A DNA stretch of 64,000 bases from contig OZ024890.1 in NCBI GenBank assembly GCA_964017195.1, forward strand, positions 17,822,201-17,886,200, written 5' to 3'. This document shows positions 30,138 through 45,674 of the stretch, piece after piece (positions within the stretch are counted from its first letter, which is position 1; each line of letters opens with the position of its first letter). The stretch comes from Siderastrea radians. Its lineage: Eukaryota > Cnidaria > Anthozoa > Scleractinia > Rhizangiidae. The position numbers were made by a program, and so were the translations under genes. The notes below the pieces were generated by a model, which searched no databases, was not told the DNA's origin, and saw only the letters and a program-made list of their open reading frames with translations.

Positions 30138-30603
30138 AGTAGTGTTATAAATGGGGGTACTAGCACAGCTGGTGAATCTTAGATTAAATCTTCGGTCAAA
30201 TCTCTAGCACAGCTGTCAAACCTCTAGCACAGCTGTCAAAATCTTCAGTCAAATTAAAGAGAAATTATTCCCAGTCAAAGTATACGTCTAGCACGGCTGG
30301 TGAATCTTGGATTAAATTAATTGAACGTGGCTGAAAAATCTTCAGTCAAATTAAACAGAAATATACCCACAATTTCATATAAAATTTTATATGAAATCTC
30401 CAAGAAACTTTACCTAAATTTGACTGAAGATTTGAGTGATAAAAGCACGCGAGCGCACCCAGTCAAATTCTCACTCAATTTTCACCAAATTTTTGACTGA
30501 AAAAATATTAAAATTCTATTATGACCGTAAGCATAACTTGTCACGCCATTTTCATGAATATATCTTTTATCGTCGAAGCAGCTGAGTGATGTTTTATTCA
30601 CCA
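30138..30603 (+). repeat. Polinton left terminal inverted repeat (466 bp)
   Basis: Inverse of 45209-45674 with no difference that I could find. Contains three direct and one inverted copy of AATCTTC(A/G)GTCAAAT (30187, 30240, 30337, 30418). Several TAGCACAGCTG units and a 26-bp perfect palindrome at 30372-30397 are also present. Its inner 124 bp duplicates the 3' end of the polymerase gene. Confidence 0.95.
30372..30397. repeat. 26-bp perfect palindrome in TIR
   Basis: ATTTCATATAAAA followed by its own complement. The same palindrome is present in the right repeat at about 45415-45440. It could fold as a hairpin in displaced single-stranded ends. Confidence 0.85.
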
Positions 30604-30647
30604 CTTTTAATTAGTCCACAGGGACTTTCCCGAGGAAATGAGTCATT

Positions 30648-30900: not shown

Positions 30901-30926
30901 TTTGTAGTGAACAGAAAAAATGAGAT

Positions 30927-31415
30927 TTATTCTTGGATGAATACCTTGTTGTATTTTTTTTCAAATTTGTCAGTTAATGGACACATATCAATGATTATTT
31001 CATCTATAACTTTGACATAATCAAGAAATTCTTTTTCATCATACTTCAGTCCTCTCATAAATGATCGTAAATCTGTTAAAACCTTTGAATAAGATGTATA
31101 GGCGAATTTAGACATCTCAATCTTCCTTTTGTAATTTTTAGCCTCTGAATATGTTTTTAGCAAGAGACCAGCGCCAGATATTGTTCCGAGAGGAATAGGA
31201 TTTAATGTAACACCGCCAACTACTGTTCCCGTAACTACCAATAAAACAGATGCAATGTTGCATATGAGTTCTGCTTTTTTGAAGTAATTAAAGGTCATTT
31301 TGGCAAGCCAGTATTTCTTATGATAGAATTTGTATAATGCTTTCAACTCAGATATTTGATTTTCCGTTAATTTTTCTGAAACATGGTTCCAATTGAATAT
31401 ATTATGTTTATCCAT
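30927..31415 (-). CDS. two-transmembrane Polinton accessory protein (SLATT-like layout)
   Basis: 162 aa. Residues 20-45 are helical and Lys/Tyr-rich (ALYKFYHKKYWLAKMTF). Two hydrophobic segments follow at about 49-69 and 73-88, separated by a short Pro/Asn turn. A long amphipathic helical tail (KTYSEAKNYKRKIEMSKFAY and onward) completes it. This layout resembles the SLATT family of two-TM proteins known from bacterial conflict systems, but that is a resemblance in layout, not proven homology. It is the last gene of the leftward block, 18 bp after the fibre gene. A virion membrane or host-membrane role is possible. Confidence 0.7.
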   Translation of the reverse strand: MDKHNIFNWNHVSEKLTENQISELKALYKFYHKKYWLAKMTFNYFKKAELICNIASVLLVVTGTVVGGVTLNPIPLGTISGAGLLLKTYSEAKNYKRKIEMSKFAYTSYSKVLTDLRSFMRGLKYDEKEFLDYVKVIDEIIIDMCPLTDKFEKKYNKVFIQE

Positions 31416-31433
31416 TTATATTATATGATTATA

Positions 31434-33686
31434 TTAATTGAGTGAAATCGGATCATGATCAACAGCATACCATTTGCAAAGTACCTGATGATGTAGTTTG
31501 ATATTGGTTTCAGTAAGATTTTCGCCTTTGTAAAGACAATAAAAAGCTATATCACCTTTCAAGCCTGCAATACCAGATGGATTCAAATCTCCAAATGTCA
31601 TCTTGGTACTTCCTTGCGATGTTCTTGCTGTAAAACTAGCTAATTTTTTGCCGTTACACCATGTTTCAGAAGCATTGTTACCACCAGGTACATCCCAGTG
31701 AATTGATAAACAGATCCATTTATTCAGTTCACCCGCATTAGCTTTTGATTGGTATGGTGCTATAGCATTCTTACCATTGAAAGCTTTTCGTCCAATGACA
31801 ATATGTTGATTTGGTGTTCCACTTATAACTAACTCACCAGTCGGGGAGAATGTAACAAATTTATCGAAGCCTCCATTATCATGTCCAAAAAGTCCATTAC
31901 GAACGAAATAAGATCCTGTGTATGAATTCAATCGATAAACAATGAAAACATTAACTATATCAGCTTGTCCAGAACCAGGATTTAAATTTATGTTTGACAA
32001 CATTCGCTTATTTCCATTGAATTTTAAATAATATCGATAATTGATTTTTTCGGCTTTTGTACATAAAATTGGTCTATTTACTTTTCTTGTTTGAGTAGCA
32101 TTATTTTCTTTAATAGATTGATCAAAAAGATCTGATACTTCTCTAGTAGAATTGTCAAAAGTAACCTCAGCTGGTATACCTCGCTCTATCTTATATAAGC
32201 AATCAGCTAGTTGATAACTTTCCCAGAATAAAGTTTCTGATAAATTTGATGATAAATTATTAAATTTTCTTTCCACAATATTCAAAGAACGTTTATTGCA
32301 AGCATCACCTTCATTTAATGGATCGTCTAAATTGATTATTTTGTGATTGTTCATATCAAGATTCGTTTCCATCACCATCTTACCATTTTCAATAGCAAAA
32401 GCGGTGTCATAAACACTTGGGTCAACGTTTGAAATTGTTTCTTTTACACCATAAACAATAAGATGTCCAATTGTTAAAAGTGATGGAAAAGTAACTGTAC
32501 CGTTTAGATTGAGATAAATAAATTGCGGAGGCGAGCTACCCCATCGGTGAAAATTGATAACTGTTTTGGTATAGTTTCCGAATGTTTTTGTTGCATAATT
32601 AGAAATTGAAATCGTAGTGCCTTGCACTGTCACACTCAACTCATTCATTTCCGGCGGAAACCATTCAACTACCAAAGTATAGTAACCAACTGGAAGTTTA
32701 TAAAGGTTGAAACCGAGGCGTGATTGGTACTGGTTTGGTGAGCTTTTTTGAAACAGGAGTTTAAGTTGGTAAGCTTTTTTATTAATTTGATGTGGAGAAT
32801 TGGAAAAATTAACAATACCCAAAACCTGAATATTTGATTCACTTGAAGATTCGTCGTCGTTTTCCATCAAGTATCTGAAGGCGTCTTTTTTTTGTCCTGA
32901 ATTAATAATCTGAGATTCATGAATTTTTTGAGTGACAAGATTTCTCAAATCTGTTATTTCATTTTCCATTAACTCAACATTAACTGCGGATTTCGAATTT
33001 TTTGAATCGGTTTGTAAGTTAACAATTTTATTGTTATTTAAATTCAAGTCTCCCGACATACTTGTTGTGCCATTAAGTTTGAGATAATTTTTTTGCGAGT
33101 TAGTGATTCTCTGAGTGATATATTCTACAGTAGCAACGTCTTTTTGGTTTACTGGAAATTTGACATTGATGATCGCATTATTCTTCATATCGATAGTAGT
33201 GTCCTTATCTAATTTTTTCGCAAGCTGATTATCAACATATTTTTTATTTACTCCATGGTCTGAATTAACTGGGTCTTTGATATTTGTTATGAAATGGTTG
33301 TTCATGTCTAAAGATTGTAGCATAGACCCGCCTTCTTTTTTACTCAAGAATATATTCCGGGCTGCATTATAAGAGATGGCTTTATTCGTGTTTCCACGAA
33401 TTGGGTACGGCTGTGGTTGTAAAATTAGGTCTCCGTTCATAGTTGCTCCTGTCTTTTTCACAAACTGAGTTGTATCCGCACTTGGAATCTTAGCTATTTC
33501 ACTATCTAACTGACTTTTTGTAACCACATCATTATTATTAGTTCCTTGTTTTACATTCACTAATTTTTTATTCTGCATATCATAATCATTATTAGCATCT
33601 AATTTGAATCCAATACCAGGTAAACCTCTGAGACCCCTCGAATTTATAAAATGATTAAAATTCAATACTCCGTTGTAGAAACTCAT
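31434..33686 (-). CDS. fibre/spike-like protein with repeat shaft and LamG-like tip
   Basis: 750 aa. The N-terminus has a short collagen-like GLRGLPGIG. Five shaft repeats of the type LDMNNHKIINLDDP....A.NK.Y occur at about residues 30-60, 115-150, 165-195, 205-240 and 445-480. Such repeats form trimeric fibres in phage tail and adenovirus-like spikes. Residues about 555-750 form a concanavalin A/LamG-like domain (FIVYRLNSYTGSYFVRNG, WICLSIHWD, GDIAFYCLYKGENL). It is a likely receptor-binding tip. It follows the ATPase gene by 11 bp. A jelly-roll-like insert at about 290-440 is unassigned. Confidence 0.75.
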   Translation of the reverse strand: MSFYNGVLNFNHFINSRGLRGLPGIGFKLDANNDYDMQNKKLVNVKQGTNNNDVVTKSQLDSEIAKIPSADTTQFVKKTGATMNGDLILQPQPYPIRGNTNKAISYNAARNIFLSKKEGGSMLQSLDMNNHFITNIKDPVNSDHGVNKKYVDNQLAKKLDKDTTIDMKNNAIINVKFPVNQKDVATVEYITQRITNSQKNYLKLNGTTSMSGDLNLNNNKIVNLQTDSKNSKSAVNVELMENEITDLRNLVTQKIHESQIINSGQKKDAFRYLMENDDESSSESNIQVLGIVNFSNSPHQINKKAYQLKLLFQKSSPNQYQSRLGFNLYKLPVGYYTLVVEWFPPEMNELSVTVQGTTISISNYATKTFGNYTKTVINFHRWGSSPPQFIYLNLNGTVTFPSLLTIGHLIVYGVKETISNVDPSVYDTAFAIENGKMVMETNLDMNNHKIINLDDPLNEGDACNKRSLNIVERKFNNLSSNLSETLFWESYQLADCLYKIERGIPAEVTFDNSTREVSDLFDQSIKENNATQTRKVNRPILCTKAEKINYRYYLKFNGNKRMLSNINLNPGSGQADIVNVFIVYRLNSYTGSYFVRNGLFGHDNGGFDKFVTFSPTGELVISGTPNQHIVIGRKAFNGKNAIAPYQSKANAGELNKWICLSIHWDVPGGNNASETWCNGKKLASFTARTSQGSTKMTFGDLNPSGIAGLKGDIAFYCLYKGENLTETNIKLHHQVLCKWYAVDHDPISLN

Positions 33687-33697
33687 TTATTAACTCT

Positions 33698-34342
33698 TCA
33701 GATTATTTCAGTAAAATTTTTTGCATTAAATTTTCGTGGCTTATCAACATATAGAAAAGTATATGGTTCATTTGTTGCCAAGAGATAGTCGTCTTTCTTA
33801 ACGTTCAATTCTTGGCATATCCTACTCTGTTCATTCTTGCTTGGAAAATCGAAAATGCAGTGATGGGAACAGTTTAATCTGATGGTTTTGTCTGTATTGT
33901 AAAAAGACTGAGACAGATAGATACAGCTGCAATTTTTATTTCGAGAGTTCGTGAAATAGTTTCGTATCTCTTGATCATTTTTGGTTCCGGTGTTCAAGTA
34001 ATCATCGAAAATGATTAACTTTTGGTTTCCATCATCCATGTCAGGTAAAGGAATTATCTCACCGTTGCTAGCTTCAATGATATTATAACCATATTTTTTC
34101 GAAAGAGGTTCAAATTTTTTCAACAAATATTGATACTTGTTTTGTTGTAAGTTTTTAGCATATAGATAAATCTTATCAAAAAATAACAGGGGTTTGTTTA
34201 TCATGTGAAGCAAAAGATTGGTTTTACCACTCCCACTCGGAGCGCAGATCAACATTCTGAAGCATCTATCTGGCATATAAGGATACAATTGGGTGAAATT
34301 ACTGTCTTTATCACCTTTCACATCATAGTTTGGTATTTCCAT
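33698..34342 (-). CDS. FtsK/HerA-type genome-packaging ATPase
   Basis: 214 aa. Walker A APSGSGKT is at residues 34-41, Walker B KLIIFDDYL at about 109-117, with a sensor-like SRNKNCSCIYLSQSFYNTD block (arginine-finger region) at about 130-148. Size and order fit the A32-like packaging ATPases of Polintons. The ATPase would pump DNA into the capsid. It is the first gene of the leftward block, transcribed away from 34506 across a 163-bp divergent region. Confidence 0.92.
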   Translation of the reverse strand: MEIPNYDVKGDKDSNFTQLYPYMPDRCFRMLICAPSGSGKTNLLLHMINKPLLFFDKIYLYAKNLQQNKYQYLLKKFEPLSKKYGYNIIEASNGEIIPLPDMDDGNQKLIIFDDYLNTGTKNDQEIRNYFTNSRNKNCSCIYLSQSFYNTDKTIRLNCSHHCIFDFPSKNEQSRICQELNVKKDDYLLATNEPYTFLYVDKPRKFNAKNFTEII

Positions 34343-34505
34343 TTTATTAATTTACAACAGAATTTTTTCTCAATAATTTTATGCAACTCGCTATACGACA
34401 CGCCATGCGACACGCTATACGACACGCCATGCGACACGCTATGCGAGTTTTTTTCATATTCAATTGAAACAAAAAATATTATTTTTTTTGTTTCAATGAA
34501 ATAAA
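34343..34505. promoter_or_regulatory. divergent promoter region of the Polinton
   Basis: The only gap with genes leaving on both sides. It contains the 24-bp tandem repeat at 34389-34446 and an AT-rich box with TTTGTTTCAATGAAATAAA just before the ATG at 34506. Control of both blocks from here is inferred from gene orientation. Confidence 0.6.
34389..34446 (+). repeat. 24-bp tandem repeat, 2.4 units
   Basis: CGCTATACGACACGCCATGC plus GACA repeats at 34389 and 34413, with a partial third unit. It is CG-rich in an otherwise AT-rich element and lies midway between the divergent starts, so it is a candidate binding array. Confidence 0.9.
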
Positions 34506-35501
34506 ATGAGTCTCCTCAAGTGGAAAGAAATGGCTGAAAAAAGATCGAAAATAGGTCAAGATATTAATACTATCAGAGAAACGCTGAAACAAAAGAAAAT
34601 AACCGATACAATGAGTGATGTTGAAGCAGAGAAGCTTTTCAAACCGATAACATCCGGTTTGAAGGAGTTGACGCAACCTCAACCTATGAAAAGACGGTTG
34701 TTAAGGAAAAAAGCAGAGGTTCCAGATTATGGTATCAATATCGATGATGAAGGAATACCAGATTACAATCTTGAAGATTTGTTTGATGAAGGGGTTGAAC
34801 CACAAAATACAAAACAGCTTGTTCCAAAACCACCCTCCTATGATGATGTTCTCAAAGATTTGGAAACAGGAAAAAAGAAAATATATGTCAATCCTGAGTA
34901 TATGCAACAACTTGAAGACCCACCAGAATATGAAGAAGATGAAGTTCCAGATTATGAGATTTTTGAAGAAGATAGAATAAATGAGACTTTAGATGAACTT
35001 GGATTGGCCAACTATGATGACATTGAAGCACAACTCGAAAGAGAAGATATGACAGAAAAAACAAGACATTCTTTCTTGTTAAAGAAAATAGAAAATGCAG
35101 TCAAGAAAAGACAACAACTTCCAGGTTACAAAACACACGTTACAAAGCAGTTGAATAAAGGTTTGATAAGCCAATCTGAAGCACAGTTCAGAAGAAAGGT
35201 CATCGATGACGCTCGAAAAGTTCTCAATGATTATATCAACTTTAACAAAAATAAGTTGAAGAGTATCAAAGGCTCTGGTCTCAAAAGAAAAACAACAAAG
35301 CGAGGTGGAAATGTAAGTGCTGTTTTTATCAACCCTGAAGAAGCTGCCAAAAAGTTAACATTAATAATTGGATCAATTGGCGCTGGTAATAATAGCATAG
35401 AGCTAAGAAACACAGGTGTTGCTATTCTTGATATTTTATTGAGAAATTACATAATTAATAAAGATAAATATAACAAAATTTACAAAAACTTTTTCATGTG
35501 A
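34506..35501 (+). CDS. conserved-type Polinton protein of unknown function
   Basis: 331 aa, not recognised. A basic helical head (WKEMAEKRSKIGQDINTIRE) is followed by an acidic Pro/Tyr-rich middle with repeated VPDYGI/IPDYN/VPDYEI motifs at about residues 73, 83 and 155. The tail is basic. An adenain-type cleavage consensus IKGS-G is present at about residues 253-257, just before KRKTTKRGG, which suggests a virion component processed by the protease. It is the first gene of the rightward block. Confidence 0.8.
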   Translation: MSLLKWKEMAEKRSKIGQDINTIRETLKQKKITDTMSDVEAEKLFKPITSGLKELTQPQPMKRRLLRKKAEVPDYGINIDDEGIPDYNLEDLFDEGVEPQNTKQLVPKPPSYDDVLKDLETGKKKIYVNPEYMQQLEDPPEYEEDEVPDYEIFEEDRINETLDELGLANYDDIEAQLEREDMTEKTRHSFLLKKIENAVKKRQQLPGYKTHVTKQLNKGLISQSEAQFRRKVIDDARKVLNDYINFNKNKLKSIKGSGLKRKTTKRGGNVSAVFINPEEAAKKLTLIIGSIGAGNNSIELRNTGVAILDILLRNYIINKDKYNKIYKNFFM

Positions 35502-35513
35502 ATATATTAAAAA

Positions 35514-36281
35514 ATGCAAACAACATTAGTATTATCTTCTCATAACGTCAAGAAACAAACAAAAAATAAGCCTAGTGATTTTACAATCAGATATAATCAA
35601 CCAATAATACTTAATCCAAACAGACAATATGAACTTGGTTTAGGTCGAATTATATCCATGTCTTTCACATGGTTCAATATCACATCAGAGCTGGACAACC
35701 AAAAAATAAAATACTCTTCTGATGGTGGAAAAACTTGGAAAGATATAACCTTCCCACCAGGTACATGGAATTATGTCAGTTTCAATAATTTCATCAAAGA
35801 AAAAACAAAAACAAAGACTTCAAACAAAACTTCATATCCAATAACCTTGGAATTTAACAACACAACTTTCAAAACAACAATAAATCTGGCAACAAACTAT
35901 CAACTAGACCTCACAACATCAAATTTCAGAGATCTGATCGGTTTTAACAAAAGAATTTTAACCAGTTCTGAAAATGTTGGTGACTACACACCAAATCTCA
36001 GTCAAGATACAGAGATTTTGAATATACATTGTGATCTTATTTCAGAGAGTCTTGTTGATGGGGATGAGACAGATATTATTTACACCTTTGGAACAAATGA
36101 TTTACAACCATCTTATGCTTTTACTAAAGAGCCTTTGAGAGTTCAATATTATCCAGTGAATAAGTATATCATAAACACCCTGCGGGTATACATTACTGAT
36201 GGTAAACGACGAATAATAGATTTGAATGACGCAGATACATCATTTTCTCTGATTTTGAGAGAAAAAAAAAATAAAAGATAA
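35514..36281 (+). CDS. minor capsid (penton-like, single jelly-roll) protein
   Basis: 255 aa. TTLVLSSHNV at the N-terminus, then IILNPNRQYELGLGRIISM, LTTSNFRDLIGFNK, and a C-terminal VNKYIINTLRVYITDGKRRI...SFSLILRE strand pair. This is typical of Polinton penton homologues, which form the five-fold vertices. It starts 12 bp after the preceding stop and ends 7 bp before the next start, so the genes are packed as a late block next to the major capsid gene. Confidence 0.85.
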   Translation: MQTTLVLSSHNVKKQTKNKPSDFTIRYNQPIILNPNRQYELGLGRIISMSFTWFNITSELDNQKIKYSSDGGKTWKDITFPPGTWNYVSFNNFIKEKTKTKTSNKTSYPITLEFNNTTFKTTINLATNYQLDLTTSNFRDLIGFNKRILTSSENVGDYTPNLSQDTEILNIHCDLISESLVDGDETDIIYTFGTNDLQPSYAFTKEPLRVQYYPVNKYIINTLRVYITDGKRRIIDLNDADTSFSLILREKKNKR

Positions 36282-36288
36282 TTATAAA

Positions 36289-36669
36289 ATGCCAACGTAC
36301 AATTACAAACGAATTTTTCATCCAAGTCTTGGAAGATTTGTTTACAAACACAAAGGATCCGGTTTGATTGTGGATAATATTTTCAAACCAATGAAAATGA
36401 TTGTGGATAAAGTTTTAAAACCTGTTGCTAAAAAAGCTTTGAAATCAGGAATAGAAAGTGCTGGTGATAAACTTGGTAAAAAAGTTGTTGAAAAAGTTGC
36501 TGAAAAATCAGGTCATCTTTTCATGAAAGACCTTCAGTCTTTGGGAAAACAAGTTCCAAAAGCAACAAACAAACAAAAAGAAGAAGAAGATTACAATGTG
36601 ATATTGAATAGATTGATTTCTGGAAGCGGTATAAAAAACAAAAATAAAAAAAAAATTTCAAACAGATAA
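36289..36669 (+). CDS. small basic virion protein (core/pX-like)
   Basis: 126 aa, strongly Lys-rich. YKRIFHPSLGRFVYKHKGSG leads into an amphipathic stretch with LKPVAKKALKSGIESAGDKL. ISGS-G at about residues 110-114 fits the adenain cleavage consensus (M/I/L)xGx-G. Size, charge and place between the capsid genes suggest a DNA-binding or membrane-active core protein. Family assignment is an inference. Confidence 0.7.
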   Translation: MPTYNYKRIFHPSLGRFVYKHKGSGLIVDNIFKPMKMIVDKVLKPVAKKALKSGIESAGDKLGKKVVEKVAEKSGHLFMKDLQSLGKQVPKATNKQKEEEDYNVILNRLISGSGIKNKNKKKISNR

Positions 36670-36676
36670 ATAAAAG

Positions 36677-37966
36677 ATGACTTTCAGAACAAGTGATAAA
36701 CTGCAGAGATATGAAATGGTTAGGTTCTCCCCTGACAATATTATTGAACAACCTGGAAACAACAATTCTCAGAAAAAAACAGGATATAAATTCACAATAA
36801 CCGACAGATCCACTTTTTTTGATTATTTCAACGGATATTTCGAGGTAACCAAAGAGCTCCAAAAGAAAGCCGATGGATCCGGTTTTGCAGCTGCTGACCG
36901 AATTTCAATGATTAATGGGTCACATTCTCTCATCAAACACATGGTTATCAAATCTGCTGGCAAAATAGTGTACGATAGTGACAACATTCATAGAATTGTA
37001 AATGCTAAAAATTTGTTGGAGTATAGTGATGATTTCAGCAGGTCGGTTGCTAAAAATAGTTTTTGGTATCTTGACACAGAAGATTCAACAGCAAATACGA
37101 ATTCGGGTTTTGAAGCAAGGCGACTTTTAACTCAAGCAAAACAGAACAATGGTGGTGGTGGAGCCAAAAGCATAAATGAGATCATTCCGTTGAACAGATA
37201 CAGTTTCTTTGAGGAATTGGAAGACAAGATGCTTCCTCCCATGCAGCTCACATTCGAACTGGACTTGAATAATGATGATGAATTGATTCACAAAGCAGCT
37301 GCTGCTGATAATGGACGGGTGGTTGTCACTCGACTTTATCTTTGGCTTCCAAGATTAACTCCTAAAGATAGTGCATACGGTGAATTTGTGAAAGATTTTC
37401 TCAAACCAACCAAATGGACGTACATGAAAGATATGTATATTCAGAGTGCAAATACAAGAGCAGTTCAAAACATGTTTCAAATTAGCCCAGCCATTGACAA
37501 TGTTAAACATGTATTCATTTATCTACAGAGAACTAATGGTCCAAACAATGAGGAATCTGAGAGAACTCCTTACATTTTTGATACTTTCAAGCTGAATTCT
37601 GCAGATGCTGATAGCTCTCTTGCATCATGTCGTTTGGAGTATGGAAACAGTACTTTTTATCCTGAATTGGAGTATGATGCTGATTCGAAAGTAAGAATCT
37701 TCAACGATCTAATGTCTTATGCTTTTCGAAAGAATGATCTGAACACAGGAACGCAGTTGAATATACATAATTTCGCATCTATTTACGGTCTTGTTTATTT
37801 TGATCTGACCTACCAAAAAGAGGCTATCACTAGAGATCCAAAACAACTGATTTTGAACTACAGATTGAATACGGCACCAACAGCTAATGTGAGAGCTCAT
37901 GCTATCGTATTTTACGAAAATGAGGTTATTGTCAACAAGGTTGGAAACGAACTTATGATTGTCTAA
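36677..37966 (+). CDS. major capsid protein (double jelly-roll)
   Basis: 429 aa, the usual Polinton size. Recognisable blocks are STFFDYFNGYFEV, DRISMINGSHSLIKHM, GKIVYDSDNIHRIVNAKNLL and SDDFSRSVAKNSFW in the first jelly-roll. SFFEELEDKMLPPMQLTFEL lies near the domain junction, and IYGLVYFDLTYQKEAI near the end. It forms the hexons of the icosahedral shell. It starts 7 bp after the upstream stop. No frame damage is seen. Confidence 0.92.
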   Translation: MTFRTSDKLQRYEMVRFSPDNIIEQPGNNNSQKKTGYKFTITDRSTFFDYFNGYFEVTKELQKKADGSGFAAADRISMINGSHSLIKHMVIKSAGKIVYDSDNIHRIVNAKNLLEYSDDFSRSVAKNSFWYLDTEDSTANTNSGFEARRLLTQAKQNNGGGGAKSINEIIPLNRYSFFEELEDKMLPPMQLTFELDLNNDDELIHKAAAADNGRVVVTRLYLWLPRLTPKDSAYGEFVKDFLKPTKWTYMKDMYIQSANTRAVQNMFQISPAIDNVKHVFIYLQRTNGPNNEESERTPYIFDTFKLNSADADSSLASCRLEYGNSTFYPELEYDADSKVRIFNDLMSYAFRKNDLNTGTQLNIHNFASIYGLVYFDLTYQKEAITRDPKQLILNYRLNTAPTANVRAHAIVFYENEVIVNKVGNELMIV

Positions 37967-37991
37967 TTCAAAAACATTTCCTGAATTTATT

Positions 37992-38007
37992 TTATTTCGT
38001 GAAATAA
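37992..38007. promoter_or_regulatory. TTATTTCGTGAAATAA inverted repeat
   Basis: A 7-bp arm palindrome in the 48-bp gap between major capsid and pVI-like genes. A related box with 11-bp arms precedes the polymerase (41403-41433), and CGTGAAAC(A) occurs near 39310 and 39428. It could act as a shared transcription or termination signal. Confidence 0.55.
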
Positions 38008-38014
38008 AATAAAT

Positions 38015-38821
38015 ATGACTCAATTGCATGAGATTAACGTTACGCTTTCTGAGAATCAAAAAATGAAACTAAGTAAAGCTTTTCACAACCGTGAAACAAT
38101 CACCCTGAGGTTAACAAAAGATGCCTTAAATGGAAGTGATACTCTTCTTGTTCCTTCAACAACTGTTAAAAGGTTGGAAAAGAACCGAGCTATGAATAAA
38201 GGAATGGAAATAAAACTGTCGAAGACAAATATTAGAAAACAGGTTGGTGGTTCACTTTTGAGTTCAATCTTGACACTTGGTCGAACTTTTGGACCAACAT
38301 TAGCAAAGACTCTAGGATTATCAGCTCTCGCTGGTGCCGCTTCTGAAGGAGCATCTCAAATTGTTAAAAAGATATCTGGAAAAGGTTTACAGACAGGTGG
38401 TTTTCTCATTCCAAATTCCAAAATAAATCAACTCATCGCTCATAAACATCTTTTGAGTGATAAACAGAAAAAAGATATTCTCAATGCCTTGCAAACTGGT
38501 TCTGGTGTTCATATAAAACCCACAAAAAACCAAACAGGCGGGTTTCTTGGCACTCTTCTTGCATCAATTGGTATTCCACTAGCTCTTGAAGCTTTCAAAA
38601 AGATGACGGGTTCAGGAGTTCCCAGAATTGGAAAACCTCCTAAAAAAAATGGTGGATCAGCCCCTAGAATTGGAGTGTATCAACCACCACCTCCATTTTA
38701 TGGAACATGGGAAGAAAACTCTTTTTCAGGTGGAGGAAAAAAAAAAAAGTTGGGAAATGGGTTGCTTCTAGGGAAAAACAGTCCATTCAATGGGATTCCA
38801 CTCCTCGGAACAATTCTTTAA
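38015..38821 (+). CDS. membrane-active virion protein (adenovirus pVI-like)
   Basis: 268 aa. Amphipathic/hydrophobic segments are at about 80-110 (SLLSSILTLGRTFGPTLAKT) and 175-194 (GGFLGTLLASIGIPLALEAF). Adenain-type sites are ISGK-G (120-124) and MTGS-G (197-201). A Pro-rich segment precedes a C-terminus LLLGKNSPFNGIPLLGTIL, a motif common at the end of such proteins in cnidarian Polintons as I recall. It probably acts in membrane disruption and as protease cofactor. Residues 240-244 are encoded by an A12 run that overlaps the protease frame. Confidence 0.75.
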   Translation: MTQLHEINVTLSENQKMKLSKAFHNRETITLRLTKDALNGSDTLLVPSTTVKRLEKNRAMNKGMEIKLSKTNIRKQVGGSLLSSILTLGRTFGPTLAKTLGLSALAGAASEGASQIVKKISGKGLQTGGFLIPNSKINQLIAHKHLLSDKQKKDILNALQTGSGVHIKPTKNQTGGFLGTLLASIGIPLALEAFKKMTGSGVPRIGKPPKKNGGSAPRIGVYQPPPPFYGTWEENSFSGGGKKKKLGNGLLLGKNSPFNGIPLLGTIL

Positions 38822-39285
38822 AATTCCACAAAGAAATACCCTTGAGCAACCACGATTTGTTAAGATGGTGTCGCCATCTTAAAATACCAATAGACAAAGG
38901 TGGTGTCTTGTCAAGAGACCAAACTGCTCCACACAACCACAAAATGGCGCTATTCATTTTCAATCTTGAGCCGTCATACATGAGTGGAAGTCATTGGGTT
39001 GCAACACATGTCAAGAATGGGAAAATCAATTATTTCGACAGTTTTGGGTTGCCACCATTTCAAGAGATTGTAAATCACGCAAAGAAAAAAAATCTCACTC
39101 TAATTCATCAAAATAACCAGATACAAGCCTTGAATACAACGACTTGTGGATACTTTTGTTTATACTTTTTGAATGAGATGAATAAAGGTGTGTCATATTT
39201 CAACCTTTTGCAAGTCTTTGATGTTCATGATACCATGAAAAATGAGAGATTCATTGAAAGATATTTTGAAAAAATTAATATGTAA
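38707..39285 (+). CDS. adenain-like cysteine protease
   Basis: 192 aa in the -1 frame relative to the pVI-like gene. Catalytic residues are visible: H96 in GSHWVATH, D111 in NYFDSFG, Q140, and C147 in TTTCGYFCLY, with Q-to-C spacing of seven as in adenain. Homology to the family begins only near residue 38 (LKFHKEIPLSNHDLLRWC), just past the upstream stop. The first 37 residues overlap the pVI-like gene out of frame and hold the only upstream ATG. It matures capsid proteins at (M/I/L)xGx-G sites. Confidence 0.9.
   Translation: MGRKLFFRWRKKKKVGKWVASREKQSIQWDSTPRNNSLKFHKEIPLSNHDLLRWCRHLKIPIDKGGVLSRDQTAPHNHKMALFIFNLEPSYMSGSHWVATHVKNGKINYFDSFGLPPFQEIVNHAKKKNLTLIHQNNQIQALNTTTCGYFCLYFLNEMNKGVSYFNLLQVFDVHDTMKNERFIERYFEKINM
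38737..38748 (+). other. A12 homopolymer inside the pVI-like/protease overlap
   Basis: Twelve adenines read GGA AAA AAA AAA AAG in the pVI-like frame. A_AAA_AAG and A_AAA_AAA heptamers are in phase for a -1 slip into the protease frame. No strong downstream stem was found by eye. Either an overlapping AUG start or slippage could produce the protease. Confidence 0.6.
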
Positions 39286-39296
39286 CCATATTGTAA

Positions 39297-39449
39297 ATGA
39301 AAACGTATTGCGTGAAACAAAGAAAAGAAACTGAGTGTGTTGAGCCTTCGGGCTATAAATATGCAAAGAACGGTCGACTTATGTTCTTTTGCACATGTGC
39401 TGAATGTGGTATAACTAAAACTAGATTCGTGAAACAAACGGGAAACTAA
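39297..39449 (+). CDS. 50-aa zinc-ribbon-like protein (DUF5679-like)
   Basis: A short frame, ATG at 39297, stop 39447-39449. It reads KTYCVKQRKETEC at the start and CTCAECGITKTRF at the end, with KNGRLMF between. This is the layout of the small YCVKCR...KNGR...C.CG.K.S.F proteins found in large DNA viruses and Polintons. The second Cys of the first knuckle is Gln here, so metal binding is doubtful unless C14 substitutes. It lies 11 bp after the protease stop. Confidence 0.7.
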   Translation: MKTYCVKQRKETECVEPSGYKYAKNGRLMFFCTCAECGITKTRFVKQTGN

Positions 39450-39484
39450 TTAGCCCGTCTGAAGGGGCGGGCATTCTGGATACA

Positions 39485-40096
39485 ATGACATCCACTGGTA
39501 CTGATATGTTAATTCAACACGGTATTCCTTGGCTTGGAAAAAAAGCAGTTGAAATGGGAAGATATTACGGTAGTGAAGCTCTGAGGAACCCAAAACTGCA
39601 GAAAAAGGCTCTCGATTATGCTCTGGAAAGAGCAACTCCTTTCATTCAAAAAACAGGATCAGAGATGCTTGATCAATTATCCACTAAAATCAGACCAAAT
39701 AGAAAGTATAAAACCGACAGAAAGGATTTGGATGGAGGTGGGCTTGACATTCATAAAGCCATTGGAAAACTCCCTAAACCAAAAGGGGGTTGGACTCTTC
39801 CAGGGCATAAATACACAGGCCCCTACAACGATCTTGAAAATCAGGTCAGATGGGATCCAAAAACAGGAGAGATACTCGAGATATATGACAAACCAACGGG
39901 TAAGACCGATGCCATAGCGATGCAACATGATGTTGATTATTCAGTTTGCAAAGATGATAAAAAATGTAAGAACAAAGCCGACAGGAAAATGGTCAAAGCG
40001 TTGGATTCTGTTCCTTATAATGAGAGACAATGGGGTCATTGGATGGCACGAAATATTATTGATAAAAAGCAGAAACTGGGTCTTGGTTTAAACTGA
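39485..40096 (+). CDS. parvovirus-type phospholipase A2-like virion protein
   Basis: 203 aa. The head is amphipathic (residues 1-65), then an adenain-type site LDGG-G at 82-86. A PLA2 fold of parvovirus VP1 type follows: calcium loop GHKYTGPYNDLE (108-119; Tyr replaces the usual second Gly of GPGN), catalytic QHDVDY with H148-D149, then a helix with Cys at 155 and 161. It would breach endosomal membrane during entry. The stop at 40094 directly follows a T TTA AAC heptamer (see 40087-40180). Confidence 0.8.
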   Translation: MTSTGTDMLIQHGIPWLGKKAVEMGRYYGSEALRNPKLQKKALDYALERATPFIQKTGSEMLDQLSTKIRPNRKYKTDRKDLDGGGLDIHKAIGKLPKPKGGWTLPGHKYTGPYNDLENQVRWDPKTGEILEIYDKPTGKTDAIAMQHDVDYSVCKDDKKCKNKADRKMVKALDSVPYNERQWGHWMARNIIDKKQKLGLGLN

Positions 40097-40180
40097 AAAG
40101 GCCGCCGGGTGAAGAAAACTGGCAAGAAAAATTAGCTGATGAGCTTCATAAACCGATAAAGCGTAACTTCACCCGGCGGC
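40087..40180 (+). promoter_or_regulatory. candidate -1 programmed ribosomal frameshift signal
   Basis: T TTA AAC at 40087-40093 is in phase with the PLA2 frame (X XXY YYZ). The next codon is TGA. After a 7-nt spacer (40094-40100), GCCGCCGGGTGAAG (40101-40114) pairs perfectly with CTTCACCCGGCGGC (40167-40180), leaving a 52-nt loop. The -1 frame is open from 40066 to 41046 and encodes the whole integrase. Heptamer, spacing and stem all fit the viral frameshift design. Confidence 0.8.
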
Positions 40181-41046
40181 GGGTAATTGTAAACCATATT
40201 GACGAGACATGGTGTTCAGATATCGTTGAGATGCAAAAATTCAGTCGATGGAATAAGGGTTATAGATATCTTCTCATGGTACTCGATGTGTTTAGTAAAT
40301 ACGGTTGGATCATTCCTTTGAAGGATAAAAAAGGTGAAACCGTTGCTGAAGCATTGAAAACCATTTTAAAAGAAGGTAGAAAACCGGAATATCTTTGGAC
40401 AGATAAAGGAAAAGAGTATTATAATAAACATGTTAAGGAACTACTGGATAAGAATAAAATAACCTTGTACTCAACTGAGAATGAGGAAAAGTCGTCAGTT
40501 TGTGAAAGATGGAACCGTACAATCAAAACCAAGATGTGGAAGCAGTTTACTGTTCAAGGTAATACACAGTATCTTGAAATGTTACCCAAATTAGTGAAAC
40601 AGTATAACAATACCAGACATTCAAGCACAAAGATGACACCTACAGAAGCAAGCAAAAAGAAGAATGAAGGAACTGTCTACTTTAATCTATATGGTGATAT
40701 GGAAACATCAAGACAAAAACCAAAGTTCAAAGTCGGTGATAAGGTTAGAATATCTAAGTACAAACGTCCTATCTTTGACAAAGGATACACAGCCAATTGG
40801 ACAGAAGAAGTTTTCACAGTTGACAAGATACAATACACCAATCCGATCACTTACAGACTCAAAGATCTCAGTGGTGAGGAGATATCAGGTTCTTTTTATG
40901 AACAGGAGATGCAGAAGGCTGTTCAAGACGTTTACCGTATTGAGAAAGTGATTCGACGAGACGCTCGAAAAGGTAAAGCTTTGGTGAAGTGGAGAGGTTA
41001 CCCAGAAAAATTCAATTCTTGGGTAGATATTAACGATCTGATGTGA
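40093..41046 (+). CDS. retroviral-type DDE integrase with chromodomain
   Basis: The family-conserved region starts upstream of the first ATG (40231). The -1 frame from 40093 includes LADELHKPIKRNF, then DETWCSDIVEM with the first catalytic Asp at 40219-40221. The second Asp is at 40402 (LWTDKGKEY) and the Glu at 40504 (VCERWNRT), giving D-60-D-33-E. An SH3-like region (FKVGDKVRISKYK) and a chromodomain (YRIEKVIRRDARKG...GYPEKFNSWVDI) follow. AUG initiation at 40231 would lose the first Asp, so expression by frameshift from the PLA2 gene, or from a non-AUG codon, is required. It integrates the element DNA. Confidence 0.92.
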   Translation: MKRPPGEENWQEKLADELHKPIKRNFTRRRVIVNHIDETWCSDIVEMQKFSRWNKGYRYLLMVLDVFSKYGWIIPLKDKKGETVAEALKTILKEGRKPEYLWTDKGKEYYNKHVKELLDKNKITLYSTENEEKSSVCERWNRTIKTKMWKQFTVQGNTQYLEMLPKLVKQYNNTRHSSTKMTPTEASKKKNEGTVYFNLYGDMETSRQKPKFKVGDKVRISKYKRPIFDKGYTANWTEEVFTVDKIQYTNPITYRLKDLSGEEISGSFYEQEMQKAVQDVYRIEKVIRRDARKGKALVKWRGYPEKFNSWVDINDLM

Positions 41047-41047
41047 A

Positions 41048-41088
41048 AATAAATTTAAAAAAAAATCTTACATACAAGAAAAGTGAAA
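41048..41088 (+). promoter_or_regulatory. upstream box shared with polymerase gene, copy 1
   Basis: AATAAATTTAAAAAAAAATC, then TTACATACAAGAAAAGTG, precedes the ATG at 41089. The same text with small changes lies before the polymerase ATG (41432-41472). Conservation in non-coding DNA directly before two adjacent starts suggests a promoter module. Confidence 0.6.
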
Positions 41089-41400
41089 ATGACAAAAATT
41101 TTAACTCTTAAAGAAATTCGAAAAATAGCTGTAGGAAAAAATATCAGATTTTCAAACAAACTCTCAAAAGCAGAGCTGGCAAAAGAGTTAAATCTTGATG
41201 AAGAATTGTATAACAGACCAAGTAACGCAAAGGAGGTGTTAATTACAAATGTTGACACACAGGTTGCTACAAAATGTAAAAGCATCTATCAGTGTTCAAA
41301 ATTGGTGGGTAAAAGTTATGGTTCGACTCATTATTTTGTGAATTGTGGACATGCGTTTGTGGATAAGGATGGAAATAAGGTCAGATTGTCTTTTGCTTGA
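41089..41400 (+). CDS. small SAP-like/NUMOD-like DNA-binding protein
   Basis: 103 aa from the ATG at 41089; the frame is open two codons further up, at a GTG. The N-terminal LTLKEIRKIAV...SNKLSKAELAKELN resembles a SAP/HeH helix-extension-helix. The C-terminal CKSIYQCSKLVGKSYGSTHYFVNCGHAF.DKDGNKVRL resembles NUMOD1-type helix-turn-helix repeats. Both suggest DNA binding. It sits between integrase and polymerase. Assignment is tentative. Confidence 0.65.
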   Translation: MTKILTLKEIRKIAVGKNIRFSNKLSKAELAKELNLDEELYNRPSNAKEVLITNVDTQVATKCKSIYQCSKLVGKSYGSTHYFVNCGHAFVDKDGNKVRLSFA

Positions 41401-41402
41401 AC

Positions 41403-41433
41403 TTTTTCATTTCGTGAAACGTGAAATGAAAAA
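41403..41433. promoter_or_regulatory. inverted repeat upstream of polymerase gene
   Basis: TTTTTCATTTC (41403-41413) pairs with GAAATGAAAAA (41423-41433) around GTGAAACGT. It directly follows the stop of the SAP-like gene, so it may serve as a terminator-like hairpin or regulator. Confidence 0.6.
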
Positions 41434-41472
41434 ATAAATTTAAAAAAATCTTGCATATAAGAAAAAAGAAGA
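41432..41472 (+). promoter_or_regulatory. upstream box shared with SAP-like gene, copy 2
   Basis: AAATAAATTTAAAAAAATCT then TGCATATAAGAAAAAAG, ending at the ATG. See 41048-41088. Confidence 0.6.
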
Positions 41473-44400
41473 ATGGATTTACAAAAAGTTCCTTTGAAAG
41501 CCTTTGCGAAAAGCCTTGGGTTTAGAGGTTATTCACGCTTGAGAAAAGCGTTTGATACCACAAAAGATAAGATAACAAATATTTTTAACAAATCAACACC
41601 AACACCGGCACCGAGACAACCCCCTAGCTTATTTGGTAAGATTAACGTTCCCATCCTCAAACCAACAGTTGTCACAACAACACTCAAAAAGCTACCAAAT
41701 CTAGTTCAAAAAACGACTGAAAAAGTCATTAATTGGGGAAAGTGGTTAAAAAATGTTGATAAAGTGATTGAAGAGAAAACTGAAGAAAAAACTGAAGAGA
41801 AAACTGAAGAAAAAACTGAAGAGAAAACTGAAGAGAAAACTGAAGAAAAAACTGAACCAACTTTCACACAGAAAGAACAAGCCATGCGAGGGTTCACAAG
41901 ATCATATGAAATTGGTCTCACAAACAGACAAGACCCATTAATTCAACTTCAGAACACCCGTTCAGTGATTAAGAACAATCTATTAAAGGTTCTAAATGAG
42001 ATGAAAGGTCTCAAATTCAATGAAATGTTGAAGATTACGTTTGAAAAACAGAAAGGAGATGAGTTGATTGAAAAGACAGCTTATTTCAATGCAAAGCCAC
42101 AAACAGTAACAAACGAGACAGATATTGATAACTTGTTGCAAATAACACAACAACAGATTGTAAATATGATTCAGCAATGGATTTCAGAAGGATCAGCATG
42201 GACTATCCAATCTGTTGATGGTCATTTCATCAATGTTGTAAAGTACAGACCACTTAGAGGTTCTTCATATATTCCTTTACCCAAAGAGCTGCAGAACCCA
42301 GCTAAAGGGATTATAAACATGAAAAATAATGACGATGAATGTTTTCGTTGGTGTCACATTCGTCACCTCTTACCACAGAATAAAAATCCACAGAGAATAA
42401 AAGAGTGTGATAAAAAATATGTAGAAAAATTGGATTACTCGGGAATTGAGTTTCCCGTTTCTGTGAAACAATACAACAAAATAGAGAAACAAAATAATAT
42501 TCGTGTTAATGTCTTCGGTTATGAGGAAAGACAACCGTATGCAATTTACCTTTCAAAAGAAAAGTTTAACTCTTGTTTGAATCTGCTCTTAATAACCGTA
42601 GGAGAGGTAAAACATTATTGTTTATTAAAGGATTTCAATAAATTTATGTACAATCAAACGAAGCACAAAGGAAGAAAGCATTTCTGTATGTACTGTCTTT
42701 CATGTTTAAGCTCTAAAGAGCATCTTGAAAAACACAAAGTTGATTGTATTGAAATTAATGGGAAACAATCCATTAAAATGCCAGAACCTGGATCAAAAAT
42801 TGCATTCAAAAATTATCGTAAACAGTTACCGGCACCTTTCGTGATTTATGCTGATTTTGAAGCCATCACCGAAAAAGTTGGTGAGAAAGCTCCGCAAAAA
42901 TCCTGCACTGAACAATATCAAAAACATACGGCTTGTGGATATGGTTATAAAGTTGTTTGCTATTATGACGATAAATTTTCAAAACCAACCAAAATTTACA
43001 GAGGAGAAATGGCCATTAACAAGTTCATGAACGACATGTTGGCTGAAGTTAAATACTGTCAAAAGGTTGAAAGAACCCACTTTAGAAAACCTATGGAAAT
43101 GACAGACGAGGATAAGGAAAGTTTTAAAAGAGCTAAAGAATGTCACATCTGCAAGATACCTTATATCACAGGTGATAAGAAAGTAAGAGATCACTGTCAT
43201 GTCACCGGTAAATACAGAGGATCAGCACATGAAGATTGTAATCTAAATTTCCAATTGACTAATAAAATACCTGTGGTGTTTCACAATCTCCAGGGGTATG
43301 ACAGTCACTTTATAATGCAAGAGATTGGTAATATTGTGAAAAAGAATGTGTATTATGATATGAAAGGAAATGAACATGAGATGAGCATAAATGTCATTCC
43401 CTGTAACATGGAGAAATACCTGGCCTTCATGTTGGGTCACAACCTTGTGTTCATCGACAGCTTTCAATTCATGAGCTCGTCATTGAGTAATTTGGTGAAT
43501 AATCTTCCTGCTGAAGCATTCAAACACACGGGGCAAGTATTTCAAGGTGAACAATTGAGTTTGATGACAAAGAAAGGTGTCTATCCTTATGACTATATGA
43601 ATAGTTTTGAAAAGTTTGAGGACAGCAGGTTGCCAAAGAAAGAAGATTTTTTCAGTATTATGAATAATGAACATATCACAGATGAAGAGTATCAACATGC
43701 ACAAAATGTTTGGAACGAATTTGGTTTATCATCAATGGGAGAGTATCACGATCTCTATCTCAAATCGGATATTTTGTTGTTGACTGATGTTTTTGAAAAT
43801 TTCCGCAAAGCATGTCAACAATACTATGGATTGGATCCTGCTCATTATTTCACAGCACCCGGTCTGAGTTGGGATGCAATGTTGAAAATGACAGAAACTG
43901 AATTGGAGTTGATAAGTGATGTTGATATGTTTCAATTCATTGAAAAAGGTATGCGTGGTGGAATCAGTTACATCGCCAATCGATATGGAAAGGCAAACAA
44001 CAAGTATATGGAAAACTACAATCCGGAGGAGGCATCAAAATACATCGTTTATCTGGATGCAAACAATCTATATGGTTGGGCAATGAGTCAATATCTTCCA
44101 ACAGGTGAGTTCGAATGGTTGACTGAAGAAGAGGTGGATTTATCCAAGTATAATGATGAGTCTGAAAAAGGATTGGTATTGGAGGTCGATTTGGAATATC
44201 CAGAGGAGTTGCATGATCTCCACAACGACTATCCACTGGCAGCAGAAAAAATCAAAGTAACTGAAGATATGTTATCACCTTATTGTCGAGAAATTGCTGA
44301 AAAATTTAAAGTAAAGGTTGGATTGGTCGAAAAGTTGGTGCCAACGTTGTCAAATAAAGAGAGATATGTTTTGCATTATCGCAACTTGCAACTCTATATG

Positions 44401-45330
44401 TCTTTGGGGTTGAAACTAACAAAGATTCATAGAGCTCTCGAATTCGATCAGAGTCCATGGTTGAAACCTTACATTGATTTCAACACAAAAAAGAGAGCAG
44501 AGGCAAAGAACTCTTTTGAAAAGGATTTTTTCAAATTGATGAATAATTCGGTGTTTGGAAAGACGATGGAGAATCTGAGAAAGCGACAGGACATTAAACT
44601 TGTAACTGATGAAGAAAAACTATTAAAGTGGGCCAGCAGACCGAGTTTCATAGGCTGTAAAATATTTAATGAGGATTTAGTTGCCGTTCATAAAATCAAA
44701 CCAACTTTGACATTGAACAGACCGGCATATGTTGGAATGTGCATCCTAGACTTATCAAAAACATTGATGTATGATTTTCATTACAATTACATCAAAAGTA
44801 AGTATGGTGACAAAGCTCGGTTGCTGTTCACAGATACTGACAGTCTGACCTATGAAATTGAAGCAGATGATGTTTATCAAGATTTTTGGAAAGACAAACA
44901 TCTTTTTGATAACAGTGATTATCCAAAGAATAGCCCGTTTTTTGATGACTCAAACAAGAAAGTCATTGGAAAATTCAAGGACGAAGCAGCAGGAATCCCA
45001 ATCGTGGAGTTTGTTGGTTTGAGCTCAAAAATGTATTCTTACATGAAAGACAATAAACAGGATAGTCGCACAGCAAAGGGAATAAAAAAGAATGTGATAA
45101 AACAAAAAATACAACACGATAATTACAAAGATACGCTTTTCAATAAAAAACAGATGCGTCACATGATGAGACTAATTAAAAGTGTAAAACATCAAATTGG
45201 TAGCTATATGGTGAATAAAACATCACTCAGCTGCTTCGACGATAAAAGATATATTCATGAAAATGGCGTGACAAGTTATGCTTACGGTCATAATAGAATT
45301 TTAATATTTTTTCAGTCAAAAATTTGGTGA
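41473..45330 (+). CDS. polB: protein-primed family B DNA polymerase (pPolB)
   Basis: 1,285 aa. A basic head is followed by (EEKT) repeats at about residues 100-127 and the terminal-protein/N-terminal region. A C2H2-like knuckle FCMYCLSCL...HLEKH lies near 400. Exo I FVIYADFEA is at about 456-464. An endonuclease VII-like zinc insert (CHICKIPY...RDHCHVTGKYRGSAHEDCN) is at 556-590. Exo II HNLQGYDSHF is near 603, motif A YLDANNLYGWAM near 860, motif B KLMNNSVFGKTMENL near 1022, and motif C FTDTDSL near 1117. All catalytic acids are present. The last roughly 40 codons lie inside the right TIR. It replicates the element using a protein primer. Confidence 0.95.
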   Translation: MDLQKVPLKAFAKSLGFRGYSRLRKAFDTTKDKITNIFNKSTPTPAPRQPPSLFGKINVPILKPTVVTTTLKKLPNLVQKTTEKVINWGKWLKNVDKVIEEKTEEKTEEKTEEKTEEKTEEKTEEKTEPTFTQKEQAMRGFTRSYEIGLTNRQDPLIQLQNTRSVIKNNLLKVLNEMKGLKFNEMLKITFEKQKGDELIEKTAYFNAKPQTVTNETDIDNLLQITQQQIVNMIQQWISEGSAWTIQSVDGHFINVVKYRPLRGSSYIPLPKELQNPAKGIINMKNNDDECFRWCHIRHLLPQNKNPQRIKECDKKYVEKLDYSGIEFPVSVKQYNKIEKQNNIRVNVFGYEERQPYAIYLSKEKFNSCLNLLLITVGEVKHYCLLKDFNKFMYNQTKHKGRKHFCMYCLSCLSSKEHLEKHKVDCIEINGKQSIKMPEPGSKIAFKNYRKQLPAPFVIYADFEAITEKVGEKAPQKSCTEQYQKHTACGYGYKVVCYYDDKFSKPTKIYRGEMAINKFMNDMLAEVKYCQKVERTHFRKPMEMTDEDKESFKRAKECHICKIPYITGDKKVRDHCHVTGKYRGSAHEDCNLNFQLTNKIPVVFHNLQGYDSHFIMQEIGNIVKKNVYYDMKGNEHEMSINVIPCNMEKYLAFMLGHNLVFIDSFQFMSSSLSNLVNNLPAEAFKHTGQVFQGEQLSLMTKKGVYPYDYMNSFEKFEDSRLPKKEDFFSIMNNEHITDEEYQHAQNVWNEFGLSSMGEYHDLYLKSDILLLTDVFENFRKACQQYYGLDPAHYFTAPGLSWDAMLKMTETELELISDVDMFQFIEKGMRGGISYIANRYGKANNKYMENYNPEEASKYIVYLDANNLYGWAMSQYLPTGEFEWLTEEEVDLSKYNDESEKGLVLEVDLEYPEELHDLHNDYPLAAEKIKVTEDMLSPYCREIAEKFKVKVGLVEKLVPTLSNKERYVLHYRNLQLYMSLGLKLTKIHRALEFDQSPWLKPYIDFNTKKRAEAKNSFEKDFFKLMNNSVFGKTMENLRKRQDIKLVTDEEKLLKWASRPSFIGCKIFNEDLVAVHKIKPTLTLNRPAYVGMCILDLSKTLMYDFHYNYIKSKYGDKARLLFTDTDSLTYEIEADDVYQDFWKDKHLFDNSDYPKNSPFFDDSNKKVIGKFKDEAAGIPIVEFVGLSSKMYSYMKDNKQDSRTAKGIKKNVIKQKIQHDNYKDTLFNKKQMRHMMRLIKSVKHQIGSYMVNKTSLSCFDDKRYIHENGVTSYAYGHNRILIFFQSKIW
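41774..41855 (+). repeat. 12-bp coding minisatellite in pPolB (EEKT units)
   Basis: GAAGA(A/G)AAAACT units repeat in frame seven times, giving a flexible acidic/basic linker. Copy number is likely to vary between element copies. Confidence 0.9.
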
Positions 45331-45674
45331 AAATTGAGTGAGAATTTGACTGGGTGCGCTCGCGTGCTTTTATCACTCAAATCTTCAGTCAAATTTAGGT
45401 AAAGTTTCTTGGAGATTTCATATAAAATTTTATATGAAATTGTGGGTATATTTCTGTTTAATTTGACTGAAGATTTTTCAGCCACGTTCAATTAATTTAA
45501 TCCAAGATTCACCAGCCGTGCTAGACGTATACTTTGACTGGGAATAATTTCTCTTTAATTTGACTGAAGATTTTGACAGCTGTGCTAGAGGTTTGACAGC
45601 TGTGCTAGAGATTTGACCGAAGATTTAATCTAAGATTCACCAGCTGTGCTAGTACCCCCATTTATAACACTACT
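45209..45674 (-). repeat. Polinton right terminal inverted repeat (466 bp)
   Basis: Inverse of 30138-30603. It includes polymerase codons up to 45330 plus the non-coding end. Right tip CCATTTATAACACTACT, then GATGGA. Confidence 0.95.

Follow-up and report, generated by a model that had tools for sequence, protein, structure and literature searches.

In several retroviruses (MMTV, HTLV-1, BLV and SRV-1), gag-pro-pol is expressed through two -1 ribosomal frameshifts, and GGGAAAC, TTTAAAC and AAAAAAC are all used as heptamers in retroviral gag-pro-pol. Restricting and tethering the integrase by frameshifting is characteristic of retroelements. A comparable arrangement is known in the IS3 family, where OrfA and OrfB are joined by a -1 slip on an A-rich heptamer. 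For adintoviruses, frameshifts have been predicted with KnotInFrame in Penton, near its 3' end, and in Hexon-Adenain (PMC11071296), and these predictions precede the present one, whereas the original prediction knew of no frameshift described in Polintons. In the portions of the sources available, PMC11071296 is the only one to treat programmed frameshifts in this group, PMC10120064, PMC8097293, PMC12567637, PMC12721341 and PMC8363768 not doing so; and no account of a frameshift at the integrase junction was found in the available portions of the Polinton, Maverick, adintovirus and virophage literature, which included few subscription papers.

The locus presented here belongs to a Polinton of Siderastrea radians in which three ORFs, encoding a zinc ribbon, a phospholipase A2 (PLA2)-like protein and an integrase, would be linked by two -1 frameshifts into a single unit with graded expression, a reading to which we give a probability of roughly 0.85 from the DNA of a single genome. 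The window, i.e. the whole 64-kb stretch of DNA analysed, contains this 15.5-kb element at 30138-45674, whose ends are:

30138..30603, forward strand: left terminal inverted repeat (TIR), beginning AGTAGTG, 466 nt, 100% complementary to the right one
45209..45674, reverse strand: right TIR, 466 nt, 100% complementary to the left one

Both ends are flanked by a 6-bp target duplication (GATGGA), which together with the complete complementarity of the 466-nt TIRs suggests that the Polinton is young. The assignment to Polintons made in the original prediction agrees with these ends and with the gene content, which includes an rve integrase with a chromodomain (PF00665, E 3.6e-12; PF00385, E 3.6e-07) and a packaging ATPase (Pox_A32, E 3e-10, at 33698-34351). 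An adenoviral-type protease may be represented by a Peptidase_C5 match (E 5e-4) of 20.2 bits, under the cut-off of 21.3. A presumed polymerase ORF of 1289 aa (41461-45330) has an FTDTD motif and endonuclease VII matches, the resemblance to endonuclease VII lying around residues 541-595, and gave no PolB family match and no PDB match; 12-bp tandem repeats lie inside it, at 41757-41868. Three ORFs in 34500-37966 had no match in Pfam or PHROGs, while a 750-aa ORF on the reverse strand (31434-33686), which may be a spike or fibre, has short-stretch matches to phage tail-fibre and head-decoration families. Outside the element, a long near-perfect inverted repeat at 26159-26285 is perhaps a MITE-like hairpin.

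The junction between the PLA2-like and integrase ORFs is made up as follows:

39425..40096, forward strand: PLA2-like ORF (PF08398, E 1.4e-10), in the -1 frame relative to the zinc-ribbon ORF
40066..41046, forward strand: integrase ORF, rve core plus chromodomain (PF00665, PF00385), in the -1 frame relative to PLA2
40087..40093, forward strand: proposed slip site 2, T TTA AAC, then TGA
40101..40114, forward strand: 5' arm of stem 2, after a 7-nt spacer, a perfect 14-nt arm in the predicted fold
40167..40180, forward strand: 3' arm of stem 2, a perfect 14-nt arm in the predicted fold, also encoding integrase N-F-T-R-R

Heptamer, TGA, spacer and 14-bp inverted repeat all lie where they had first been placed, the -1 frame proved to be open from 40066 to 41046 with its rve and chromodomain matches, and the PLA2-like and integrase identities proposed from the letters alone were recovered as Pfam matches. 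T TTA AAC is in phase with the PLA2 ORF, the TGA occupying 40094-40096, and the integrase frame of the window has no in-frame ATG between 40066 and 40231, so that its first catalytic Asp (residue 52, at 40219) lies upstream of the ATG at 40231. The 107 nt 3' of the heptamer are predicted to fold at -36.6 kcal/mol (z -4.9), none of 200 dinucleotide shuffles being as stable, and 1000 resamplings of synonymous integrase codons over 40096-40191 gave no equally stable fold.

Across 12 ORFs of the element, 36 in-phase heptamers of the form X XXY YYZ were scanned, and 31 of them were rejected because no stop close by is paired with a long -1 frame. The fold in an 88-nt downstream window is strongest at heptamer 40087 and second strongest at 39440; in a near window (5-45 nt) heptamer 39440 ranks first and 40087 third among the 36. 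Each of these two adjoins the stop of its own ORF, with a -1 frame open over more than 200 codons. The features expected of a programmed -1 frameshift are thus found together: X XXY YYZ in phase with a downstream ORF in the -1 frame, a structure predicted within 5-9 nt downstream (at 7 nt for site 2 and 6 nt for site 1), and conservation of these elements with a change of coding frame, placed at 40087-40131.

A search with the integrase ORF in the 805-Mb host assembly gave at least 123 copies, each 91-100% identical and with a frame uninterrupted by stops, 123 of 2943 candidates having been scored, so that copy counts are lower bounds and biased to close copies; over 800 sampled pairs, the identity of the aligned 1.1-kb junctions is 75-100%, with a median of 90%. 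The heptamer is TTTAAAC in 121 of the 123, TTTAAAA in L093 and AAAAAAC in L157, and a sequencing error in a single copy is ruled out by this sharing. The codon that follows TTTAAAC or TTTAAAA is TGA in 114 copies, TAA in three, GGA in three and GAA in two; the five copies with GGA or GAA keep TTTAAAC, and their PLA2 frame continues for 39 nt to a TAG.

A second class of copies was found via a PLA2 relative (P0137, at least 150 places), from which 36 loci were picked by hand and aimed outside the copies of the integrase search. Most of these 36 read A AAA AAC in the PLA2 frame, followed by 7 nt and the same stem. The two sets amount to 159 loci, of which 153 were scored, the integrase motif search having failed in six (L181, L197, L208, L213, L214 and L218). 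Of the 153, 152 have an in-phase slippery heptamer (121 TTTAAAC, 30 AAAAAAC and 1 TTTAAAA) whose spacer measures exactly 7 nt, the one exception, L212, having lost the 5' arm by deletion; the conservation of X XXY YYZ across copies that was proposed as a check is borne out to this extent, at the DNA level and in one genome. Among the six unscored loci, L181 has TTTAAAC and the stem, a long A run but no stem 2 is seen in L208, L214 and L218, L213 has its integrase in +1, and the integrase start is absent from L197. In the AAAAAAC class, 22 of 30 loci have a PLA2-frame TAG 36-42 nt past the heptamer, inside the loop. As the residues encoded by TTTAAAC and AAAAAAC differ in both frames, it is the motif class and not a peptide that has been kept, and a swap that keeps the slippery class and the spacing is what would be predicted for a working slip site. 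Past the TGA, the PLA2 frame of the window still reads GRRVKKTGKKN (40100-40135), the tail with which PLA2 ends in the AAAAAAC class, and which here looks like a remnant of a longer PLA2 end.

The perfect 14-bp stem of the original prediction holds for the window, and less so for the copies: over the 153 loci, 14 of 14 pairs form in 35, 13 in 114, 12 in three and nine in one, with an A.C mismatch at 40108/40173 in 115. The states seen are C-G with G-C (window), U-A with A-U (L134 and L139) and a mixed U-G with A.C. One pair has changed on both sides and five of the 14 never vary. Covariation across copies, which had also been proposed as a check, is not significant, its score being reached in 54 of 500 shuffles with 56 distinct rows (56 of 67 distinct segments, rows with another loop length left out), and so does not prove stem 2. 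When codons were resampled in 12 copies, 0-2 of 500 resamplings were as stable in eight of them, against 7 in L065, 19 in L192, 56 in L188 and 71 in L203, with weak z values in L192 (-1.9), L188 (-1.3) and L203 (-1.1). Third positions in the 3' arm vary little among the 123 copies (none at 40179, four at 40170, six at 40173 and four at 40176), while 40182, the third base of the Arg codon just beyond the stem, varies in ten. Since other perfect 14-bp inverted repeats with loops of up to 100 nt occur in the window, stem 2 alone is not unique; it is distinguished by its position and recurrence.

Which frame is under selection on either side of the heptamer was assessed by pN/pS, per codon against the commonest codon and with distinct single-base variants only, a crude measure given that the copies are related. 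Over 40030-40086, the ratio is 0.18 in the PLA2 frame and 2.7 in the integrase frame (123 copies), and over 40097-40218 it is 0.20 in the integrase frame and 1.4 in the PLA2 frame; Fisher tests on variant counts gave p 6e-5 and 1e-3 for the two stretches, from copies that are not independent. The AAAAAAC class (29 copies) behaves in the same way, with PLA2 and integrase ratios of 0.15 and 1.44 ahead of the heptamer, 0.58 and 1.04 in the short stretch from heptamer to TAG, where the signal is indistinct, and 1.71 and 0.19 beyond the TAG. Right behind the heptamer, selection is not resolved, since the DNA itself hardly varies there: a minor base exceeds 1% at 5 of 45 sites of 40087-40131, compared with 44 of 80 on the upstream side (39950-40029) and 23 of 87 on the downstream side (40132-40218), and the integrase frame has one synonymous and four nonsynonymous variants over 40096-40131. 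By these ratios, purifying selection passes from the PLA2 to the integrase frame between 40086 and 40132, a reversal indicating that the protein product follows the PLA2 frame as far as the heptamer and the integrase frame from shortly beyond it.

A rival to the frameshift would be splicing, in cis or in trans, that joins PLA2 to integrase or provides the integrase N-terminus. In the window, 42 in-frame GT-AG pairs span the junction, and some are kept in 121-123 of the 123 copies; the pair 40086-40126 (41 nt) is kept in 122 and 40086-40135 (50 nt) in 115, and the protease ORF likewise has no conserved start. The longer introns, however, would excise PLA2 or integrase sequence under selection, and the remaining ones, confined to about 40080-40135 and with members kept in 115-122 of the 123 copies, measure 35-56 nt, which is below or near the minimum intron length of animals, and have acceptors without a pyrimidine tract. 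The would-be intron bases vary less than their flanks, being the least variable stretch of all, the acceptor at 40135 is lost in seven of 123 copies and the donor at 40086 in one, and neither the conserved class of heptamer nor its spacing of 7 nt nor the stem would be accounted for, so that splicing at this junction is unlikely.

An initiation codon would offer another entry, with the integrase starting at ATG 40030 (inside PLA2, in a good context) or at ATG 40231, through leaky scanning or a transcript of its own, and the slippery layout being incidental. The overlap ATG at 40030 is open into the integrase in 35 of the 123 copies, and several database relatives are called from such a start. 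Database proteins printed with an initial M may begin at TTG or GTG, and the window has TTG where one relative (P0003) shows M, so a printed M was not counted as an ATG. The start at 40030 is blocked by stops in most copies, and even where it is open the integrase frame from there to the heptamer is unselected (2.66, 35 copies), while the low ratio over 40097-40218 places selection on this frame upstream of ATG 40231. The claim that no start precedes the first Asp, for which homologous copies with such an ATG had been named as a refutation, is correct for the window and for 85 of the 123 copies, and incorrect for the other 38, which have an in-frame ATG (at 40030 in 35 of them); the absence of selection behind it argues that it is not a functional entry, and initiation at either ATG seems very improbable. 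Hardly credible, finally, is an entry by a non-AUG CUG at 40093 or by stop-start reinitiation at CTGA, with help from the stem: in 113 of 123 copies a CTG does overlap the TGA, and one (L093) has ATG at this place, but the CTG is lost where TTTAAAC precedes TAA (three copies), GGA (three) or GAA (two), and none of the 30 scored AAAAAAC loci has it (CGG 23, CGT 3, CGA 3, CTA 1), while heptamer class and spacer stay in all these cases; CTG is therefore not the general entry.

The candidate frameshift at the PLA2-integrase junction is accompanied by a second one upstream, where the original prediction had recognized a single cassette and missed one built on G GGA AAC:

39297..39449, forward strand: zinc-ribbon ORF, 50 aa, first of the set (DUF5679, PF18930, E 4.9e-06, 27 bits for a cut-off of 27)
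39440..39446, forward strand: proposed slip site 1, in-phase G GGA AAC, then TAA
39453..39472, forward strand: hairpin 1, GC-rich, arms 39453-39459 and 39466-39472 of 7 nt each, after a 6-nt spacer

The zinc-ribbon ORF ends in ACG GGA AAC TAA, with PLA2 in its -1 frame. Slip site 1 reads GGGAAAC in 109 of the 123 copies and GGAAAAC in two, and in the other 12 it is GGTAAAC, which is not canonical. None of the 14 arm positions of hairpin 1, the fourfold sites 39457, 39466, 39469 and 39472 among them, varies in any of the 123 copies, while 74 of 85 fourfold PLA2 sites do. Codon resampling over 39452-39499 gave no fold as stable in 1000 trials, whereas the 94-nt fold reaches a z of -1.7 only, with 14 of 200 shuffles as stable. 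The zinc-ribbon frame has a pN/pS of 0.165 before slip site 1 and 2.0 after it, and the PLA2 frame has 0.28 between slip site 1 and its ATG (30 copies, only 11 variants). PLA2 has an ATG of its own, at 39485 in 100 of 123 copies and next at 39506 in the other 23, and does not therefore depend on slip site 1. A C-terminal GN, as GGA AAC followed by a stop predicts, is found in 35 of the 120 zinc-ribbon relatives listed. From this pattern, the zinc ribbon-PLA2 junction is probably a -1 frameshift as well, with less certainty than the integrase junction.

A third -1 overlap lies further upstream, at 38668-38821, between an ORF at 38003-38821, which we take to be pX-like, and the protease ORF at 38668-39285. 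Among 30 copies, the protease frame shows selection past 38824 and none ahead of it, and some copies have a stop downstream of the ATG at 38707. Heptamers at 38737, 38740 and 38752 open onto a -1 frame of 177-182 codons, and an A run and GGGAAAT are present upstream, with no clear hairpin in the overlap. A third -1 frameshift may perhaps operate here; yet the protease ORF, which has no conserved start, shows no evident cassette of the kind described above, and this counts against the main reading.

How would such a unit work? Ribosomes on the PLA2 ORF would pause at the stem (40101-40180), and a fraction of them would move back by one base at T TTA AAC, or at A AAA AAC in the sister copies, into the integrase frame, yielding a minority PLA2-integrase protein, while the remaining ones would stop at the TGA. 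Upstream, G GGA AAC and the hairpin at 39453-39472 would let a fraction of zinc-ribbon ribosomes enter PLA2, so that a zinc ribbon-PLA2-integrase chain might exist beside PLA2 begun at its own ATG. Slippage itself, its efficiency and the resulting dose at both sites are what we infer from these nucleotide patterns, and the purpose is likely a low, fixed dose of integrase attached to the PLA2 protein. PLA2 of the PF08398 family breaches endosomes in parvoviruses. A tentative extension, rather doubtful at present, would be a retrovirus-style pair of -1 frameshifts (perhaps with a third at the pX-like/protease junction) producing a graded polyprotein, in which a small dose of integrase enters the particle fused to a membrane-breaching PLA2; carriage of integrase in a virion or particle is a guess. 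If the main reading is true, double-stranded DNA elements have reached the solution of retroelements, with two consecutive sites in more than 100 copies of one genome; it would also account for integrase ORFs without a start codon, and bears on the question of whether Polintons carry integrase in particles.

Relatives from other genomes show that the fusion can be obtained otherwise. Both PLA2 and integrase domains are found in 32 of the 120 integrase relatives listed (one of them, P0080, being a gene model), and P0011 and P0121 join zinc ribbon, PLA2 and integrase in one ORF, the DUF5679 match of P0121 being below cut-off. The presence of PLA2 and integrase in one ORF elsewhere suggests that the fusion protein is an accepted form, and the frameshift would be one of two ways to make it; these in-frame fusions do without a frameshift, which also counts against the main reading. 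Homologous copies in which PLA2 and integrase stand apart without slippery site and stem had been named as a refutation; heptamer and spacer are kept in 152 of 153 scored host loci, and some relatives are fused in one frame. The aberrant host loci (L197, L208, L212, L213, L214 and L218) count against the main reading. PLA2 C-termini among the 120 relatives listed end in KLGLGLN (32) or KKN (43), which correspond to the two classes seen at the DNA level, and Oculina patagonica and a Stylophora coral adintovirus are the only names given for the 120 integrase relatives listed. A search for relatives in viral contigs and genome contigs found none, and a degenerate DNA pattern retrieved 53 stretches in viral contigs, with no relative among them by tblastn.

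Set beside the adintovirus predictions, this Polinton belongs to the same broad virus group, with slippery sequences predicted in both; they concern other genes, however, and in the available portions of PMC11071296 the PLA2-integrase junction is not named, the term PLA2 is absent and no frame-of-selection test appears. The single ORFs of relatives (P0011, P0121, P0014 and others) have the same PLA2 and integrase domains in the same order, in one frame and with no slip needed. As in the IS3 family, a -1 slip would attach a DDE catalytic domain of rve type to a domain encoded upstream, but IS3 elements are bacterial and short, and their upstream ORF encodes a DNA-binding protein, not a PLA2. 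With retroviral gag-pro-pol, the locus shares three ORFs that are each -1 to the previous one, canonical heptamers, a stop near the heptamer, and an integrase that comes last and would be the rarest product; it differs in being a double-stranded DNA Polinton and not a retroelement, in its modules (zinc ribbon, PLA2 and integrase), and in its predicted structures, site 2 having one stem with a long loop and site 1 a short hairpin, with no pseudoknot shown.
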